Source: Clostridia bacterium (GTDB lineage: Bacteria; Bacillota_A; Clostridia; Oscillospirales; CAG-272). Taken from it: a stretch of DNA of 7,218 bases. Under the pieces are notes generated by a model. It made no database searches. It was not told the origin of the DNA and was given only the letters and a program-made list of their open reading frames with translations. The stretch is from NCBI GenBank assembly GCA_017935805.1, contig JAGBGV010000369.1, positions 1 to 7,218 of the forward strand, given 5' to 3'. Positions 1 to 7,218 of the stretch are shown here, piece by piece (position 1 is the stretch's first letter; each line of letters starts with the position of its first letter). The translations under genes and the position numbers were made by a program.

Positions 1-121
1 CCTTGGGCAGAACAACGGCAACATCGAACTTTGTACGGTCAAAATTATGAAGATAATTAACCAGCAGACGCCCTGCTCCGCCGATGTTACTGTCGGAGAG
101 GATATTCAGTATCTTTATCAT
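1..121 (-). CDS. Glycosyltransferase, GT4-like N-terminus (partial, cut by window start)
   Basis: Only the first 40 residues are present. They start MIKILNILSDSNIGGAGR and continue through a helix (LLVNYLHNF) into a second strand (FDVAVVLP). A first beta-strand, a short GGAG-type loop, a helix and a second strand form the opening Rossmann unit typical of GT-B fold family 4 glycosyltransferases, which transfer sugars from nucleotide-sugar donors. Acceptor and donor cannot be read from this fragment. The start ATG (121-119) overlaps the stop TGA of the upstream flippase gene (120-118) by four bases, which points to translational coupling. The pairing of flippase and glycosyltransferase suggests a cell-wall or surface-polysaccharide role. 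The family call rests on a short N-terminus, so a different GT-B enzyme is possible. Confidence 0.62.
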   Translation of the reverse strand, partial: MIKILNILSDSNIGGAGRLLVNYLHNFDRTKFDVAVVLPK

Positions 122-1689
122 CGTTCAGCCTTTCCTTTCTTCTTAAAGATTCCGAGGATCGCCTTCATTTCATCGCATCCGAGTAATGCAGCCGCTACAG
201 CGTAAACGGTCACGCCAACAAGAACAGGGATGATGAAGCCGAAGAGCTTGCCCATGCCCTCGGTCAGCGTGGAGACGTACCATACAGCACAGCCCATTAC
301 AGCCGCGGAGATGAGGGATTTTGCTATGCCCCGGGCATCACGGGATGTAGGGGTGATGAGCTTTTTGTTTACAGCAAAGATAAGATTGATCGCCATGTTC
401 ACGGCAGTTGCGCCTACGGAAACCAGAGCAATACCGCCGATTCCAAGATATTCTCCAAAAATAACCACTACAGCAATGTTGAAGGTCATGGAAATAATGG
501 AGGAGAGCATGGGGATCTTTGTTTTTTCTACGGCGAAGAATGCTTTTGTCAGTACCTCGCAGACTGCGGCGAAGATCATTCCCACAGAGTATGCGCGGAG
601 TGCCTCTGCCGTTATTGCGGTGTCGGCAGAATTGAACACGCCGTTTTCGTAAATGATTGAGACAAATCCGCCCGAGAGCACTGCTACACCGACGGAGATC
701 GGCGCGATAATAAAGATCAGAGTGCGGATGGATGTGCGGGTCAGGCGGTCGCTTTCATCTGTGTCGCCCGATGCCGCCGCCTTTGCGAAATAGGGGAACA
801 GCAGATTTGTGGCAACGAAGGAGAAAAGCCCCACGATTATGATATACAGTCGGTTTGCATAATCCAGCGCGGAAATTGCCCGACCGCCCTCAATTCCTGA
901 GGCGAGATTTGTGTTGATAAGATTGCACACGGGAGTGGTCCACGTGGCAATGAGAATGGGCAGGGTGTTTTTTGCGGCACGTCCTATCTCGGGGGTAGCG
1001 AGTGGAGCAGTCAGCTTGTACCTGTAGCCTCGCTTGATGAGGGCAGGTATCTGAACAGCCGCCTGTGCGATCCAACCAACCAGCATGGCGACTGCCAGTC
1101 CTTTTACACCGAATCTACCGTTCAAGGTGAAGAGGTAGCCGACCATAATGAGGTTTGACACAAGGCTGATGAGGGCGGGGATGTTGTACTCTCCCTCGGA
1201 CTGAAGAAATCCCACAAAGGAGAACGCCATTCCCACAAATATCACCATTGGGAACATGATCCGCGTCAGCTCTGTTGCCATGCGGGCAGCTTCAGTGGAC
1301 AAGTCAGGTGCTATCCAACCCACAAGAGTCGGGGCAAACAGCACACCTGCTACTGTGAGAGCCGTTGTGATCGTCAGAATCAGGTTGAGATATGACTGGG
1401 CGAAGGAGAGAGCTTCATTTTTGCCTTTCCTTACCGCTATGCTGTTGTAAACGGGGATGAATGCCGAGGTGACGACACCTCCGAGGATGAAATCGAAAAT
1501 TGTTACAGGGAGCTTTGAGGCTGTGGCGTAAGCTATGGCGGCATCTGTTGTTCCGTAAGCGGACGCGACAAGTATATCGCGCAAAAGTCCGAGGACTTTC
1601 GACGCGAGTATGATCACACCCATGAGAACGGCGGATCTCGCCAAGGCTTTGCCTGAAAAGGATCCCTTGTTTTTTATATTATCATTCAT
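118..1689 (-). CDS. murJ: MurJ/MviN-family lipid II (or polysaccharide-lipid) flippase
   Basis: This 523-residue polytopic membrane protein has about 14 predicted hydrophobic segments, the usual number for the MVF (MurJ) branch of the MOP flippase superfamily. MurJ moves undecaprenyl-linked lipid II to the outer face of the membrane. The first segment carries the family signature SKVLGLLRD (residues 30-38, comparable with SRVLGFARD of E. coli), followed by a TDA at 48-50 and GGVVTSAFIPV near 70-80. The C-terminus is short and basic (KKKGKAER). The ATG at 1689-1687 is preceded by GAGG (1698-1701) with suitable spacing, and this site lies in the 15-bp gap after the rRNA methyltransferase gene. 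The next gene, a glycosyltransferase, starts inside its stop codon. Because of that neighbour, it may be a paralogue dedicated to a surface polysaccharide rather than the housekeeping lipid II flippase. Family assignment is firm, substrate is not. Confidence 0.87.
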   Translation of the reverse strand: MNDNIKNKGSFSGKALARSAVLMGVIILASKVLGLLRDILVASAYGTTDAAIAYATASKLPVTIFDFILGGVVTSAFIPVYNSIAVRKGKNEALSFAQSYLNLILTITTALTVAGVLFAPTLVGWIAPDLSTEAARMATELTRIMFPMVIFVGMAFSFVGFLQSEGEYNIPALISLVSNLIMVGYLFTLNGRFGVKGLAVAMLVGWIAQAAVQIPALIKRGYRYKLTAPLATPEIGRAAKNTLPILIATWTTPVCNLINTNLASGIEGGRAISALDYANRLYIIIVGLFSFVATNLLFPYFAKAAASGDTDESDRLTRTSIRTLIFIIAPISVGVAVLSGGFVSIIYENGVFNSADTAITAEALRAYSVGMIFAAVCEVLTKAFFAVEKTKIPMLSSIISMTFNIAVVVIFGEYLGIGGIALVSVGATAVNMAINLIFAVNKKLITPTSRDARGIAKSLISAAVMGCAVWYVSTLTEGMGKLFGFIIPVLVGVTVYAVAAALLGCDEMKAILGIFKKKGKAER

Positions 1690-1704
1690 ACAATTGGCCT
1701 CAAG

Positions 1705-2937
1705 TTATACAACTTGGAACAGATAGAATTTCAGGTAATCGGTTTCGGGGACATTCATTAATATAGGGTGGTCGGGGGACTGCTGACGGCACTCGATCTG
1801 ACGGAGAGAAACTCCCGCGTCATGGGATGCATCCCGCAGCATTTTGTAAAACAGATCGTTTGTCATAAAGTGTGAGCAGGAGCAGGTTGCAAGATAACCG
1901 CCGCGGGGCAGGCAACGCATTGCGCGCATATTGATATCCTTGTATCCGCGGTATGCGTCCTTCACCGTTGCCGAGGATTTGGTAAACGCCGGCGGGTCAA
2001 GGATGATGTAGTCATACTCGCACTTCTTTGATTCAAGCATATCCGTGAGCAGCTTGAACACGTCGGTGCAAAGGAAGGACATTCTGTCTGTAAGTCCGTT
2101 GAGCTCCGCGTTCTTTTTTGTCTGCGCGATGGCAGTTTCGGAAATATCAACTGCGGTTACGTGCTCGGCACCGCCGAATTCCGACGCACAGTTCAGAGCG
2201 AATGCACCTGTGTGAGTGAAGCAGTCAAGCACACGGCGACCTTTTGCAAGGCGAGCAGCCGCAAGTCTGTTGTACTTCTGATCCAGGAAGAATCCGGTCT
2301 TCTGTCCGCCTACATAGTCCACGTCGTATTTGATGCCGTTTTCGTTTATGATAACGTGACCGGTGGACGTGTCCTTTATGCCGAACTGCTCGGGGCGCCA
2401 GTAGCCAGTGAACTGCTCCATGCCCTCAAGCTCGCGGACCTTAACGTCGCATCTCTCATAAACTGCGGTGACATTTATGCCGTAGTCGGGGAGCATCTCA
2501 CAGAGAGTCTCAATGAGCAGATCCTTTACCTTTTCCGTACCGAGGCAGAGAGTCTGCACAACGAGTACGGATTCAAAGAGGTCGACAGTCAGTCCGGGGA
2601 AGGAATCCGCCTCACCGAAGATAAGACGGGAGCATTTCATGTCGTCTCCCATGACTGTCTTGCGGTAGTCCAGTGCATAACGGATGCGGCGACGGTAAAA
2701 TGCTTCGTCGAACTTGTCGTTGGCATTTACGGATATGATGCGGACGCGGATCTTTGAGTGGCTGTTGTAGTAGCCGGTGCCGATGAAGCGCTCCTTCGGA
2801 GAGAACACATTTACAAGTGAACCGTCCTCGGGAGTGCCGTCAACACGGGTAACCTCGCCCTCAAACACCCATGGGTGACCGGTTTTAGCGTGGCGCTCAC
2901 CTTTTTCGGTTATGAAAACGCGGGGTAGTTGTAGCAT
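1705..2937 (-). CDS. rlmI: RlmI-like class I SAM-dependent 23S rRNA methyltransferase (PUA + Rossmann)
   Basis: The 410-residue product matches the length and layout of RlmI/YwbD-type enzymes, which methylate a cytosine of 23S rRNA using S-adenosylmethionine. An N-terminal PUA-like RNA-binding domain (about residues 1-75, with HPWVFEGEV at 21-29) leads to a middle region containing RLIFGEADSFPGLTVD (104-119). The catalytic domain shows GQKTGFFLDQ (211-220), SAM-binding motif I VLDCFTHTGAF (236-246), an acidic strand end VTAVD (260-264), motif IV DPPAF (314-318) and a CSCSH segment (352-356). The ATG at 2937-2935 has AAGGAA (2945-2950) about seven bases upstream. Its TAA ends 15 bp before the flippase start, so the two are probably co-transcribed. 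Proline codons are mainly CCC with a minority of CCG, unlike the start of valS. The exact target base is inferred from the family. Confidence 0.85.
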   Translation of the reverse strand: MLQLPRVFITEKGERHAKTGHPWVFEGEVTRVDGTPEDGSLVNVFSPKERFIGTGYYNSHSKIRVRIISVNANDKFDEAFYRRRIRYALDYRKTVMGDDMKCSRLIFGEADSFPGLTVDLFESVLVVQTLCLGTEKVKDLLIETLCEMLPDYGINVTAVYERCDVKVRELEGMEQFTGYWRPEQFGIKDTSTGHVIINENGIKYDVDYVGGQKTGFFLDQKYNRLAAARLAKGRRVLDCFTHTGAFALNCASEFGGAEHVTAVDISETAIAQTKKNAELNGLTDRMSFLCTDVFKLLTDMLESKKCEYDYIILDPPAFTKSSATVKDAYRGYKDINMRAMRCLPRGGYLATCSCSHFMTNDLFYKMLRDASHDAGVSLRQIECRQQSPDHPILMNVPETDYLKFYLFQVV

Positions 2938-3000
2938 AATTGTTTCCTTAAATTATTGTGGTTGATTCAGATGAACTATTGTAAATCTTAACCCACGCTC

Positions 3001-3030
3001 TTCTTTTTCTCTTTAGCGAGAGAAAAAGAA
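3001..3030. repeat. Perfect 12-bp stem hairpin in the valS-rlmI spacer
   Basis: Arms 3001-3012 (TTCTTTTTCTCT) and 3019-3030 (AGAGAAAAAGAA) are exact reverse complements around a six-base loop. The stem is almost purely A/T with pyrimidines on one arm and purines on the other. There is no uridine run on its minus-strand downstream side, so it does not look like a simple terminator. It is the last of four hairpins in the spacer when read in the direction of transcription. Function unknown. Confidence 0.6.
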
Positions 3031-3064
3031 GCAAAAAGAGAACTTTCTTGAACGCATGGGTGTT

Positions 3065-3103
3065 TCGAACTCTGCGGAGTTCGATTTAGGACGCCGTCCT
3101 AAA
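3065..3103. repeat. Two abutting perfect 8-bp hairpins
   Basis: The first palindrome pairs 3065-3072 (TCGAACTC) with 3077-3084 (GAGTTCGA) around TGCG. The second begins at the very next base and pairs 3085-3092 (TTTAGGAC) with 3096-3103 (GTCCTAAA) around GCC. Two perfect stems with no spacer between them, in non-coding DNA, suggest a structured RNA or DNA element or part of a dispersed intergenic repeat. I cannot name a family from the sequence alone. Confidence 0.55.
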
Positions 3104-3131
3104 AACCTGCCAACTTTTTGAAAAAAGTTGG
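3101..3131 (-). terminator. Possible intrinsic terminator of valS
   Basis: The palindrome 3110-3131 (CCAACTTTTT paired with AAAAAGTTGG) lies about 27 bases after the valS stop in the direction of transcription. It is followed on the minus strand by four bases and then TTTTT (3105-3101). The offset of the T-run and the A/U-rich upper stem make it weaker than a textbook terminator. It may be a component of the hairpin cluster instead. Confidence 0.42.
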
Positions 3132-3157
3132 ATCAAAAACTTTCAGTAAAACAGCTT

Positions 3158-5788
3158 TTAGCCGAGCTTTTCGATAGCAACGATAAGGCTTTCGCGCTTT
3201 TCCTTGTACTTTTCAAGCTTTGTGCGCTCTGCATCAACAACTGCTGCAGGTGCACGGCTTACAAAGGATTCGTTGGACAGCTTACCTTCCGCACGCTTGA
3301 TCTCGGATTCAACTGTCGCAAGCTCACCCTGGAGTCTCTTCTTTTCAGCCTCAAAGTCGATCATATCGCCGAGAGGAATGTGAATAGTTGCGGAATCTGT
3401 AATGATAAGAACTGCTGTGTCGTCGTCATATGCGTCAACCAGCTCAACAGCGGAAGCGGATGCAAGCTTTTCGAAGAATGCGCCGCTGCCCTCAAATGCT
3501 TCAGGATACTTTGTTTCAATGAATACCTTCGCCTTACGGGAGGGGACAACGTTCATTTCGGCTCTGCGGATTCTGATAGCGCGGATAGCAGCGATAACCT
3601 TTTCCATGTTGTCGCTCTCCGCCGCGAATACGAGAGATTCTGTATATTCGGGGTAGCTCTTTACCATGATGCTGCCGTCCTCACCGGGCAGACCGCTGTA
3701 GATCTCCTCGGTAATGAAGGGCATGAAGGGATGGAGGAGCTTGAGAGTCTCGCGAAGAACATAAGCAAGTACGTTCTGTGCAACAATACCTCTTTCACCG
3801 CCTGCCTGAACGGAGGGCTTGGAGAGCTCGATGTACCAGTCACAGTAGATATCCCAGATAAAGTCGTAAATTGATGACAGAGCAACGCCAACCTCGTAGT
3901 TGTCAATATTACCGCATACGTTCTTTACTGTTTCCTCAAGCTTTGTGAGAACCCACTTGTCCTCACCCGACAGCTTGTCAGCAGAGGGCAGCTCGATCTT
4001 ATCAATAGTCAGGTTCATCATTACGAAGCGCGCCGCATTCCACAGCTTGTTAGCAAAGTTGCGGGCATTCTCGATCTTTTCGTCGGAGAAGCGCATGTCG
4101 TTTCCGGGGCTGTTACCTGTTGCAAGAGCAAAGCGGAGAGCGTCAGCACCGTACTTGTCGATGATCTCAAGAGGATCGATACCGTTGCCGAGGGATTTGG
4201 ACATCTTGCGGCCCTGGGAGTCACGAACCAGACCGTGGATCAGCACTGTATGGAACGGACACTGACCAGTCTGCTCAATTCCGGAGAATACCATACGGAT
4301 TACCCAGAAGAAGATAATATCGTAACCTGTTACAAGAACATCTGTCGGATAGAAATACTCTAACTCTGCTGTGTTCTTCGGCCAGCCAAGTGTGGAGAAC
4401 GGCCATAATGCGGAGGAGAACCATGTATCAAGTGTGTCCTCATCCTGCTTGAAGTGTGTATGACCGCACTTCGGACAAACCTCCGGACATGTCTTCGCAA
4501 CTACCATCTCACCGCACTCTTCACAGTAGTACGCCGGGATTCTGTGGCCCCACCAGATCTGTCTGGAGATACACCAGTCACGGATACCCTCTAACCAGTG
4601 AAGGTATGTCTTACCGTAGCTTTCCGGAACGAATTTTAACTGGCCGCTCTTAAGAGCTTCGATCGCCGGTTTTGCCATCTCGTCCATCTTTACGAACCAC
4701 TGCGGTTTTACCATCGGCTCTACAGTCGCGCCGCAACGGTCATGTGTACCAACGTTGTGCGGATGCGGAACAACTTTAACAAGAAGACCCATTTCCTTCA
4801 GATCCTCTACCATAGCTTTTCTTGCCTCGTAGCGGTCCATACCGAAGTATTTGCCCTTCGCACTGATTGTTGCATCATCATTCATAATGCAGAGTTCCGG
4901 AAGGTTGTGGCGTTTTCCTACTTCGAAGTCATTCGGGTCATGAGCCGGTGTGATCTTCACGCAGCCTGTACCGAACTCTTTGTCAACGTAAGAGTCAGCG
5001 ATTACCGGGATTTCTCTGTCTGTTAACGGCAGTTTTAACATCTTGCCGATGAGATCCGCATATCTTTCGTCCTCCGGGTTTACAGCTACAGCTGTATCAC
5101 CGAGAAGTGTCTCCGGACGTGTTGTTGCGATCTCTACGAAACGGCCTTCTTCACCAACGATCGGGTAGTTGATGTGCCAGAAGAAGCCATCCTGCTCCTC
5201 GTGCTCAACCTCTGCGTCAGAAATGGATGTCTGACATACCGGACACCAGTTGATGATTCTGGAACCTTTGTAGATATAACCTTTTTCATATAATTTTGTA
5301 AATACTTCTAATACTGCATCAGAACAGCCCTCGTCCATTGTGAAACGCTCTCTGTCCCAGTCAGCGGAAGTACCCAGCTTATGAAGCTGTTTTACGATTC
5401 TGGAGCCGTACTCATCTCTCCATGCCCAAACTTCTTTCAAGAAGCCCTCACGGCCAAGATCATCCTTGTTGATGCCCTGTTTTCTGAGTTTATCAATAAC
5501 CTTAACCTCTGTGGAGATCGCCGCATGGTCTGTACCCGGCTGCCAAAGTGCCTCAAAGCCCTGCATTCTCTTATAACGGATCAGGATATCCTGCATGGTG
5601 TTATCCAGAGCATGGCCCATGTGAAGGTGGCCGGTGATGTTCGGCGGCGGCATTACGATTGTAAACGGTTTCTTTCCTTCTCTTTTGCCGCGCTCAGCGT
5701 CAGCGTGGAAGTACTTATTGTCCAGCCATTTCTGGTACAGGCGTTCTTCAATGTCCGCCGGATTATAGGTCTTTTCCAGTTCTTTCAT
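3158..5788 (-). CDS. valS: Valyl-tRNA synthetase, intact but codon-mosaic
   Basis: This cytosolic class Ia synthetase charges tRNA-Val with valine; 876 residues is a normal bacterial ValRS length. The HIGH motif is HMGH (56-59, within PPPNITGHLHMGH) and the KMSKS motif is intact at 528-532. The CP1 editing domain (about 195-345) holds TTRPETLLGDTAV (about 222-235) and HDPNDFEVG (about 283-291). Cysteine pairs C182/C185 and C422/C425 plus C438/C441 fit zinc-binding knuckles. The anticodon-binding region includes CDWYIELSKP (about 650). A C-terminal coiled coil (about 808-876) with FEAEKKRL near its start completes the protein. AAGGAG (5801-5796) precedes the ATG by seven bases. It lies 21 bp after the small cysteine gene and shares its T-box leader. 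Oddity: proline is always CCG up to residue 511 and never CCG from 539 on, so the gene looks like a hybrid of two lineages. Confidence 0.97.
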   Translation of the reverse strand: MKELEKTYNPADIEERLYQKWLDNKYFHADAERGKREGKKPFTIVMPPPNITGHLHMGHALDNTMQDILIRYKRMQGFEALWQPGTDHAAISTEVKVIDKLRKQGINKDDLGREGFLKEVWAWRDEYGSRIVKQLHKLGTSADWDRERFTMDEGCSDAVLEVFTKLYEKGYIYKGSRIINWCPVCQTSISDAEVEHEEQDGFFWHINYPIVGEEGRFVEIATTRPETLLGDTAVAVNPEDERYADLIGKMLKLPLTDREIPVIADSYVDKEFGTGCVKITPAHDPNDFEVGKRHNLPELCIMNDDATISAKGKYFGMDRYEARKAMVEDLKEMGLLVKVVPHPHNVGTHDRCGATVEPMVKPQWFVKMDEMAKPAIEALKSGQLKFVPESYGKTYLHWLEGIRDWCISRQIWWGHRIPAYYCEECGEMVVAKTCPEVCPKCGHTHFKQDEDTLDTWFSSALWPFSTLGWPKNTAELEYFYPTDVLVTGYDIIFFWVIRMVFSGIEQTGQCPFHTVLIHGLVRDSQGRKMSKSLGNGIDPLEIIDKYGADALRFALATGNSPGNDMRFSDEKIENARNFANKLWNAARFVMMNLTIDKIELPSADKLSGEDKWVLTKLEETVKNVCGNIDNYEVGVALSSIYDFIWDIYCDWYIELSKPSVQAGGERGIVAQNVLAYVLRETLKLLHPFMPFITEEIYSGLPGEDGSIMVKSYPEYTESLVFAAESDNMEKVIAAIRAIRIRRAEMNVVPSRKAKVFIETKYPEAFEGSGAFFEKLASASAVELVDAYDDDTAVLIITDSATIHIPLGDMIDFEAEKKRLQGELATVESEIKRAEGKLSNESFVSRAPAAVVDAERTKLEKYKEKRESLIVAIEKLG
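4172..4258. other. Inferred mosaic junction inside valS (KMSKS segment)
   Basis: The last codon of the CCG-only part is Pro511 (4258-4256), and the first codon of the part lacking CCG is Pro539 (4174-4172). The switch must lie between them, in the stretch encoding the strongly conserved GRKMSKSLGNGIDP segment. Leucine TTA is found on the high-coordinate side (for example in VLEVFTKLYE, KLPLTD, GQLKF, HWLEG and AELEYF). I found no in-frame TTA on the low-coordinate side. The reading frame passes through without damage. The counts were made by eye; the cause (recombination or assembly join) is not decided by the sequence. Confidence 0.72.
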
Positions 5789-5809
5789 TTTCTTTCTCCT
5801 TTTTTATCG

Positions 5810-6004
5810 TTACATCTGTTTTCTCACGATCAGATACTCATCGCCCGGTCTGTAGTAAGAACAGCCAAAGTCGGTTCCCCGAAGGAACGCGAACATCTCA
5901 TCCTCATCCAGATCGGCTTCACAGACATAATATTCATAGTCTTCATCAAACACATAAAATGCGCATGATTCGCAGCTTCCCTGCATTTTTTTCTTTTTGT
6001 CCAT
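5810..6004 (-). CDS. Small four-cysteine protein, DUF6472-like
   Basis: This 64-residue protein has four cysteines: a CxxC pair at 11 and 14, then 28 and 48. It also has an acidic LDEDEM segment (32-37), a GCSYYRPGDEY segment (47-57) and a basic VRKQ end. The pattern matches my memory of the DUF6472 family of short Bacillota proteins with no known function. The spaced cysteines suggest a small metal-binding fold, probably zinc, which is inference. I chose the ATG at 6004 because GGAGG (6018-6014) sits nine bases upstream. The frame is also open to a GTG at 6034, but that start has no comparable site. It lies between the T-box terminator and valS, 21 bp from valS, so it should be induced when tRNA-Val is uncharged. 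That location suggests a link to translation or amino-acid supply but does not show one. Confidence 0.8.
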   Translation of the reverse strand: MDKKKKMQGSCESCAFYVFDEDYEYYVCEADLDEDEMFAFLRGTDFGCSYYRPGDEYLIVRKQM

Positions 6005-6040
6005 GCCAGACGGCCTCCAATTCCCAGGCAGCACGCTATT

Positions 6041-6068
6041 TTACATAGGACGGAACGTTCCTGTGTAA
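6041..6068 (-). other. Hairpin between T-box terminator and first gene
   Basis: Arms 6041-6050 and 6059-6068 pair over ten positions with a single non-Watson-Crick position, enclosing an eight-base loop. An alternative ten-base palindrome GGAACGTTCC occupies 6052-6061. The hairpin lies directly after the terminator T-run and before the ribosome-binding site of the small gene. It could stabilise or mark the 5' end of read-through mRNA, but no function is shown. Confidence 0.4.
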
Positions 6069-6069
6069 T

Positions 6070-6108
6070 AAAAAACGCCCCTTATATGCCAAAAGCATAC
6101 AAAGGGCG
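6070..6108 (-). terminator. Intrinsic terminator of the T-box leader
   Basis: In the minus-strand RNA, 6108-6095 pairs with 6089-6076 through 14 positions, including two G-U pairs, closed by a five-base loop. It is followed at once by six uridines (6075-6070). The promoter-proximal arm starts with the same bases (6110-6106) that the antiterminator needs, so the two structures exclude each other. This is the regulatory switch for the downstream small gene and valS. Confidence 0.9.
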
Positions 6109-6404
6109 AAGCACCGCGTTACCACCTTTATTCGCTGTTACACTCAGAATATAATCTCAGAGGCAAAACAATCGTAAATCACTTCACCATGAATTTTATA
6201 TCTAAGATCATACAGCAATCTCATTCAGTTTTTAACGGAAACCATCCGGGAACAGCTACTGATTCTTTCACCGTTCCGGCTCCGAAGCTACCTTCCACTC
6301 ACGCATTCCCAGACCGCCTTTCAGCCTTTGAACGATCCTCTCTGAGGGTGCAAATAAGTCTACTCCTCTTCTTCCCAGCCTTTAGAAATATAAAGCATTA
6401 TATG
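6070..6404 (-). promoter_or_regulatory. T-box leader (tRNA-Val sensor) controlling the small gene and valS
   Basis: T-box leaders bind a specific tRNA; uncharged tRNA stabilises an antiterminator and lets transcription continue. The conserved T-box AAGGTGGTAACGCGG is at 6128-6114. Its UGGU can pair with an ACCA tRNA end, as expected for a tRNA with discriminator A. The antiterminator can close by pairing GCGAA (6135-6131) with TTCGC (6110-6106), which competes with the terminator. Stem I shows GGGAAGAAGAGGAGTAGA (about 6376-6359) with its AGTA element, AGAGAG distally and GCTGAAAGG on the return side. The likely specifier is GUA (6291-6289) in GGAAGGTAGC, preceded by the GAA expected opposite AGTA and followed by a purine. 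GUA is a valine codon and agrees with valS downstream. The leader call is firm; the specifier is my reading of an unfolded sequence. Confidence 0.92.
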
Positions 6405-6410
6405 AAGTTA

Positions 6411-6439
6411 ATAATAATTTAAAGCACAGCGGTTGTCAA
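6411..6439 (-). promoter_or_regulatory. Sigma-A type promoter of the T-box-valS unit
   Basis: A perfect -35 box TTGACA (6439-6434) is separated by 17 bases from the -10 box TATTAT (6416-6411). Transcription would begin near 6404, about 20 bases before the recognisable base of T-box Stem I. A TATAAT at 6402-6397 lacks a fitting -35 and is less likely to be the main -10 box. Confidence 0.8.
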
Positions 6440-6498
6440 GAGTCGGCATCTAAATTTTACATGAATCATCGAATTATCAATCAAATAATCCATCCGTC

Positions 6499-6619
6499 CT
6501 TGTGGCATATACTATGCAGACACGCTCTCGCTTGGAGAAAAACGTAGCGGATGCTAAGCTCGAAAAGACCTCGCTAAGCACCGACGTTTTTCTACAGTCT
6601 TCATAGTATATGCCGCAAG
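6499..6619. repeat. Long imperfect inverted repeat (about 121 bp), possible MITE-like or dispersed intergenic element
   Basis: Outer arms 6499-6521 and 6597-6619 are reverse complements at 21 of 23 positions, and one of the two differences becomes a G-U pair in plus-strand RNA. A perfect inner stem pairs 6536-6545 (AGAAAAACGT) with 6584-6593 (ACGTTTTTCT). Inside that, 6552-6559 pairs with 6573-6580 with one mismatch. The whole could fold as one long hairpin with an asymmetric bulge at about 6522-6535. It contains no ORF. It lies between the end of the TPR-like gene and the valS promoter. Termination of the TPR-like gene is possible, but the symmetry far exceeds what that needs. No target-site duplication was obvious. 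Confidence 0.7.
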
Positions 6620-6672
6620 ACCTGTACTAGGCAACGCTAAAAAAATATATTCCATCCAGATAATACTATAAT

Positions 6673-7218
6673 TTAGATCATCTTCCGATACTGCGCCTTC
6701 CACTCATTGACAAGTTCACTAGCGCCCGTAATCCTCTTGATCGGATCTTTCTCAAACAGCTGCTTCAGCCGGATTACCTCAGGTGCACTTGCCGATTCAT
6801 CGAAGGATCCCTGTGCTTCCACATTCCATGCACTGGTATCTTCTGATTCGATCAGCTCCTTGTAGCGGTCTTTTAATTCCAGTTCCGGCTCCATCAGGGT
6901 CAGGAAATACATGCGCTTCAGATACGATTTGTCGCTCTTCTCGTTCCATGCACAATCATAGGCGTACATTGCCTTCTGGTAGCAGAACAGTTTCGAATAG
7001 CACGCTGCTATGTTGTTCCAGATCTTGCTCTTAAACTCACCGGACAAGTACTTCTCTTTTCCGGATTCCAGAATCTTTTCATACATAGAAATCGCTTTTC
7101 CGTACAATCCGAGACTGTAATGATAGTCAGCTCTGCGCTTCGCATATTCGTCCACGGAAATCTTGCGCAGATTGGTCACCAGCTGACGATATCTCGCCTG
7201 CTCCTGCGGTGAATAGTA
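6673..7218 (-). CDS. TPR-like helical-repeat protein, C-terminal part (5' end outside window)
   Basis: The frame is open to the window edge (181 residues visible, beginning YYSPQEQARYRQL), so the N-terminus is missing. A GTG at 7179 is probably internal. Two helix pairs resemble tetratricopeptide repeats: YHYSLGLYGKAISMYEKILE and, after a charged linker, WNNIAACYSKLFCYQKAMYA. The spacing of small and aromatic residues is as in TPR motifs, which mediate protein-protein contacts. The tail is acidic, then ends in a basic helix (NEWKAQYRKMI). No signal peptide, membrane segment or catalytic motif is visible in this part. I do not recognise the family and assign no function. No clear terminator follows its TAA before the long inverted repeat. 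Proline codons include CCG, in line with the valS 5' part. Confidence 0.75.
   Translation of the reverse strand, partial: YYSPQEQARYRQLVTNLRKISVDEYAKRRADYHYSLGLYGKAISMYEKILESGKEKYLSGEFKSKIWNNIAACYSKLFCYQKAMYAYDCAWNEKSDKSYLKRMYFLTLMEPELELKDRYKELIESEDTSAWNVEAQGSFDESASAPEVIRLKQLFEKDPIKRITGASELVNEWKAQYRKMI

Follow-up and report, generated by a model that had tools for sequence, protein, structure and literature searches.

According to a passage of one published source (PMC8171044), stretches of sequence common to different species form chimeric nodes in de Bruijn graphs and, where these stay unresolved, chimeric contigs result. In the literature on mosaic synthetases, no valS domain exchange appeared among the titles listed. 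The DNA analysed here (7,218 bases, probably one whole contig; hereafter the window) resembles the chimeric contigs of de Bruijn assemblies in that two species appear to be joined at a short common stretch, with the two sides coming from different genomes. It differs from the usual case in that the join lies in frame inside an essential gene and imitates a hybrid protein. That gene, valS, occupies positions 3158-5788 on the minus strand and has 876 codons. Set against the valine-tRNA ligase family, the hybrid ValRS is full length and scores above the curated cut-offs of both equivalog models, NF004349 (1229 bits, cut-off 704) and TIGR00422 (1108 bits, cut-off 612.1), but its parts come from different families. 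We consider that the window is probably a metagenome-assembly chimera and not a natural hybrid synthetase, and put the probability of this at roughly 0.9.

The preliminary description of this DNA, made from its letters, had drawn attention to a sharp step in codon usage along valS, and a recount agrees with it exactly. All 28 proline codons of residues 1-511 are CCG, but none of the 12 in residues 539-876 is (8 CCC, 4 CCT). The leucine codon TTA, which had been described as confined to the first part of the gene, occurs eight times there and not at all in the second, and AAA falls from 20 of 38 lysine codons in the first part to none of 25 in the second. The full-length product that had been claimed is likewise borne out, by the intact reading frame and the two family models above. 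A codon-usage test, which had been proposed as a check, took the form of a likelihood-ratio scan of synonymous codons. It places the change-point at codon 532 with a likelihood ratio of 63.4, compared with a maximum of 32.0 among 30 synonymous shuffles of the same gene. With 100 shuffles for each gene, the window valS reaches a z of 10.5 and the maximum among 85 other valS genes is 3.8.

Two reference loci serve as native relatives throughout, one from the Lachnospiraceae MAG RGIG7268 of buffalo cecum (L001) and one from the Oscillospiraceae MAG SIG667 (L004), each with its own full-length valS. Neither shows a switch in proline codons along the gene, CCG being used in all 36 codons counted in L001 and in 2 of 40 in L004, and in the change-point scan they give a z of 2.5 and 3.4, respectively, and in both the cut that scores best lies close to codon 50. 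Each half of the window valS retains the codon usage of its own lineage.

Identity changes sides together with codon usage. Over codons 1-528 the DNA is 91.7% identical to L001 and 63.9% to L004, and over codons 539-876 it is 52.9% identical to L001, 91.4% to L004 and 87.1% to L112. A separate search with each half had also been suggested, and the best matches do differ: among the matches listed, residues 1-510 are 98% identical to the Lachnospiraceae-type ValRS proteins P0003 and P0006, and residues 540-876 are 95% identical to P0121, followed by Oscillospiraceae and Clostridia proteins at 85% or less. Those among the listed closest relatives of the first half that also cover the second are approximately 42-47% identical there. 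Bins of 20 codons place the change of lineage at residues 521-540. We also aligned 315 ValS sequences including that of the window, with proteins of 800 aa or less and the window's own protein (P0001) dropped; one of the 315, the window itself, changes side between halves in being nearer to L001 or to L004. Its two-parent gain of 168 is by far the largest, the next being 76 (P0062). Judged by DNA and protein identity, codons 1-527 (4208-5788, minus strand) are of Lachnospiraceae origin and the 3' part from the third base of codon 539 to the stop (3158-4172, minus strand) is of Oscillospiraceae origin, so that two halves from different families meet at the KMSKS segment.

Between these parts lies a tract of 35 nt (4173-4207, minus strand) that runs from codon 528 to the second base of codon 539 and holds the KMSKS codons. 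The preliminary description had placed the boundary within 4172-4258; the switch does fall there and can now be narrowed to the 35 nt. Codon 527 of the window is CGC, as in L001, L114 and also L119, and is AGA in L004, L112, L117 and L118. At codon 539 the window shares CCT with L004; L001, L113 and L114 have CCG there, as do the more distant Oscillospiraceae-type loci L117-L119, and L112 has CCC. Across the tract, L001 and L004 are the same but for a single base of codon 532. The tract is thus near-identical in relatives of both lineages, which stand in here for the true parents, these lying outside the sequences compared. The exact run shared at the junction is at most 29 nt between compared relatives and 20 nt for L001 and L004, the closest two. 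The longest exact valS run between lineages starts at codons 525-533 in 6 of 15 pairs, with a length of 20-29 nt, and lies elsewhere in the other 9, which makes the tract one of the best joining places in the gene and not the sole one.

The two sides of the contig match different genomes in the genes outside valS as well. Bases 1 to approximately 4172 track an Oscillospiraceae genome through the 3' part of valS, a dispersed repeat, an rlmI-like gene and murJ, and the three genic parts align to G002 and its genus (a match in 24 of 25 genomes). The best NCBIfam match of the rlmI-like rRNA methyltransferase gene (1705-2937, minus strand) is NF053718, at 306.6 bits and below the cut-off of 575; the gene is 91% identical to L004 in DNA. 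The lipid II flippase gene murJ (118-1689, minus strand; TIGR01695, 342 bits, cut-off 235.55) is, together with the end of rlmI, 84-85% identical in DNA to G002, and contig 31 of G009 carries the 3' part of valS, rlmI and murJ together at 81% identity. We sorted 80 valS loci by the identity of the 5' half of the gene into 69 of Lachnospiraceae type and 11 others of Oscillospiraceae type; their flanks vary in length, and the counts refer to the flanks compared. Downstream of valS, rlmI is found in 6 and murJ in 4 of the 11 Oscillospiraceae-type loci, and both in none of the 69 Lachnospiraceae-type loci. When the flanking ORFs of L001 (at least 150 aa, 5 kb on each side) were compared with the flanks of L004 (5 kb upstream and 1.3 kb downstream), no match was found.

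On the upstream side, bases from approximately 4208 to 7218 track a Lachnospiraceae genome through the 5' part of valS, a DUF6472 gene, a T-box and a TPR-like gene, and the 5' half of valS and the upstream genes align to G001 and its genus (a match in 3 of 3 genomes). The TPR-like gene (6673-7179, minus strand; weak Pfam TPR matches, below the cut-off) encodes 168 aa from a GTG, although its frame may extend past this start, and has 82% amino acid identity to its L001 counterpart at the syntenic place. Within the flanks compared, a match to it (26-82% identity) occurs in 14 of the 69 Lachnospiraceae-type loci and in none of the 11 others. The CCG share of its proline codons is 2 of 3, and that of the downstream genes 3 of 13 (rlmI) and 2 of 16 (murJ), so that the proline codons of all three genes agree with the lineage of their own side.

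The T-box leader (6099-6385, minus strand; Rfam RF00230, 94.7 bits, gathering threshold 93) aligns to L001 and G030 at the same place. In Rfam searches no T-box above threshold was found before valS in L113 and L003, but one is present in L001 and in both Oscillospiraceae loci searched, and the leader alone therefore has no power to separate the lineages. Between it and valS lies the gene for the small DUF6472 protein (5810-6004, minus strand; PF20076, E 2.5e-26), to which a similar short ORF is found in L001 and G030. These two relatives have an extra ORF before the DUF6472 gene and another just before valS, approximately 600 extra bases, and both ORFs are absent from the window (at about 5801-5810 and 6005-6090). 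From their translations we take the former to be GNAT-like and the latter lipoprotein-like.

The hybrid has one member on one contig of 7,218 bases, probably the whole of the window, in a protein database clustered at 90% identity. Searches with each half alone and across the junction gave no second hybrid among the best 120 of approximately 8,000 candidates per search. When scoring was restricted to residues 440-640, the protein reached 460 bits against itself and, among the matches listed, 395 against the next best, P0121, which sides with Oscillospiraceae in both halves. At the DNA level, 601 bases across the junction were searched in 395 and 397 genomes, sampled evenly from the larger sets of the two families, with 351 and 380 of them giving a match and two candidates scored per genome, and the same junction was not found among the matches listed from these two families. 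Among those matches, the three best of the Lachnospiraceae-type family end at base 488 of 601, a few others extend beyond this, and the furthest-reaching one seen (G435) extends to base 548 at 75% identity, and the best of the other family has 84% identity to the query.

If the window is an assembly chimera, bases from approximately 4208 to 7218 would derive from a Lachnospiraceae genome related to the buffalo-cecum MAG RGIG7268, and bases 1 to approximately 4172 from an Oscillospiraceae genome related to MAG SIG667. Both parent genomes would have a valS, near-identical over approximately 35 nt at the KMSKS codons (4173-4207), and the assembler would have gone into this common stretch from one genome and come out in the other. 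The true parents presumably had exactly the same 35-nt tract, and the join was presumably made in software and not in a cell. Because the common stretch would be in frame in both parent genes, the product would resemble an intact synthetase. In this way a complete, in-frame protein with every motif intact can result when two sequences are wrongly joined at a conserved motif of a synthetase; it passes family models and may be taken for a natural swap of domains. For such joins, codon usage combined with flank-wide switching of lineage offers a simple filter.

The nearest cases to a natural exchange that we encountered lie within Lachnospiraceae. In the Blautia-like MAGs L032 and L035, the 5' halves of valS share approximately 92-93% identity with Blautia-related genes from outside the group, whereas the C-terminal part, from residue 621, has approximately 54-59% identity to these same genes and is closer to P0049, P0051 and P0062. 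L037, L047 and L054 group with the two in both halves. Going by these identities, the C-terminal region of the group (the anticodon-binding domain and arm) looks like a natural exchange or a strong divergence, the latter being an alternative because this part of valS evolves fast. All five share with the window an N-terminal part near one group and a C-terminal part near another. Unlike the window, they remain within one family, change at approximately residues 570-600, occur in several separate MAGs and keep their downstream gene order: the three genes downstream of valS in L050 (Blautia hansenii) are found in all five and are not in the window.

Such apparent mosaics mean that recombination in valS is not unheard of, and they lend some weight to the idea that the window arose by a recent natural recombination between families, in which one bacterium would have taken in 3 kb or more of the other family's DNA through a crossover in the KMSKS stretch, leaving a functional hybrid ValRS whose catalytic core is from Lachnospiraceae and whose anticodon-binding domain is from Oscillospiraceae. 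The intact frame and the passing of NF004349 are also in keeping with this, as is a junction stretch well suited to homologous recombination. We nevertheless regard it as improbable, since the change of lineage runs through the flanking genes to both contig ends, with Lachnospiraceae upstream and Oscillospiraceae downstream and so no single recipient, whereas the five Lachnospiraceae mosaics that we checked keep their downstream order. Furthermore, no second occurrence, and no other isolate or assembly with the same junction, was found among the matches listed, and the codon usage of each lineage is still intact in its half. A larger natural exchange with one end outside the 7,218-base contig is similarly improbable. 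It is very unlikely that the window represents a real Clostridia cell with an in-frame, two-family valS produced by a recent exchange of several kb; in such a cell, KMSKS would mark the join between a catalytic and editing core from Lachnospiraceae and an anticodon-binding domain and arm from Oscillospiraceae. Were the hybrid real, the anticodon-binding domain of an essential synthetase would be exchangeable between families.

The preliminary description had left the choice between an assembler misjoin in the conserved stretch and a natural hybrid of an essential synthetase. The former fits best. The latter is not upheld, as the flanking genes switch with the adjoining half, the hybrid is a singleton on a single contig, and its junction is absent among the matches listed from the 792 genomes. 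Given that the whole contig switches genome at the same short conserved sequence, wrongly joined genomes are the most likely explanation, and the valS hybrid is most likely an artefact of assembly and not a real feature. The step in codon usage would also be accounted for by one lineage alone, given a functional or mutational cause for a shift along valS, but the switch in protein and DNA identity coincides with it, proline usage does not switch in the native genes of either lineage, and none of the 85 other valS genes has a comparable step; these results refute a codon-usage gradient within one lineage, to which we give next to no weight. A conserved lineage of hybrids, also considered, was ruled out, with no second example among the matches listed from the half and junction searches.

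Some features of the downstream side stand apart from the question of origin. Between valS and rlmI lies a palindromic dispersed repeat (2999-3153, no strand assigned) that is typical of the Oscillospiraceae genus; many copies occur, mostly at 77-81% identity, elsewhere in G002 and in other genomes of that genus. The segment 2986-3157 has a fold energy of -60.5 kcal/mol on the minus strand, and no Rfam family reached threshold in the repeat. Identity to G002 across bases 1-4172 is uneven in bins of 200 bases, at 64-80% in some and 97-100% at 1001-1200, 1801-2000 (149 bases aligned), 3601-3800 and 4001-4200, which perhaps reflects strain-level recombination or mixed strains.

Other ValRS entries in the database are mosaic in appearance. 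The pairs P0062/P0063, P0044/P0045 and P0046/P0047 have identical N-terminal parts and C-terminal parts that are approximately 61-64% identical, and P0106 is a similar case. Up to and including residue 592, P0062 matches P0063 exactly, and over residues 539-876 the two have 61% identity. For both P0044 and P0106 a pair of parents accounts for the sequence with 0-6 mismatches per side; for P0044, which lies on a contig of 3,751 bases, these are P0045 and P0043, and the changeover falls between residues 517 and 568. Going by these comparisons, some of the database mosaics, such as P0044, may themselves be chimeras, and they may otherwise be natural mosaics. In P0002, a ValRS of 838 aa, the 5' half aligns to the window as two overlapping segments, of which one has many gaps, and this is possibly another misassembled or rearranged gene.
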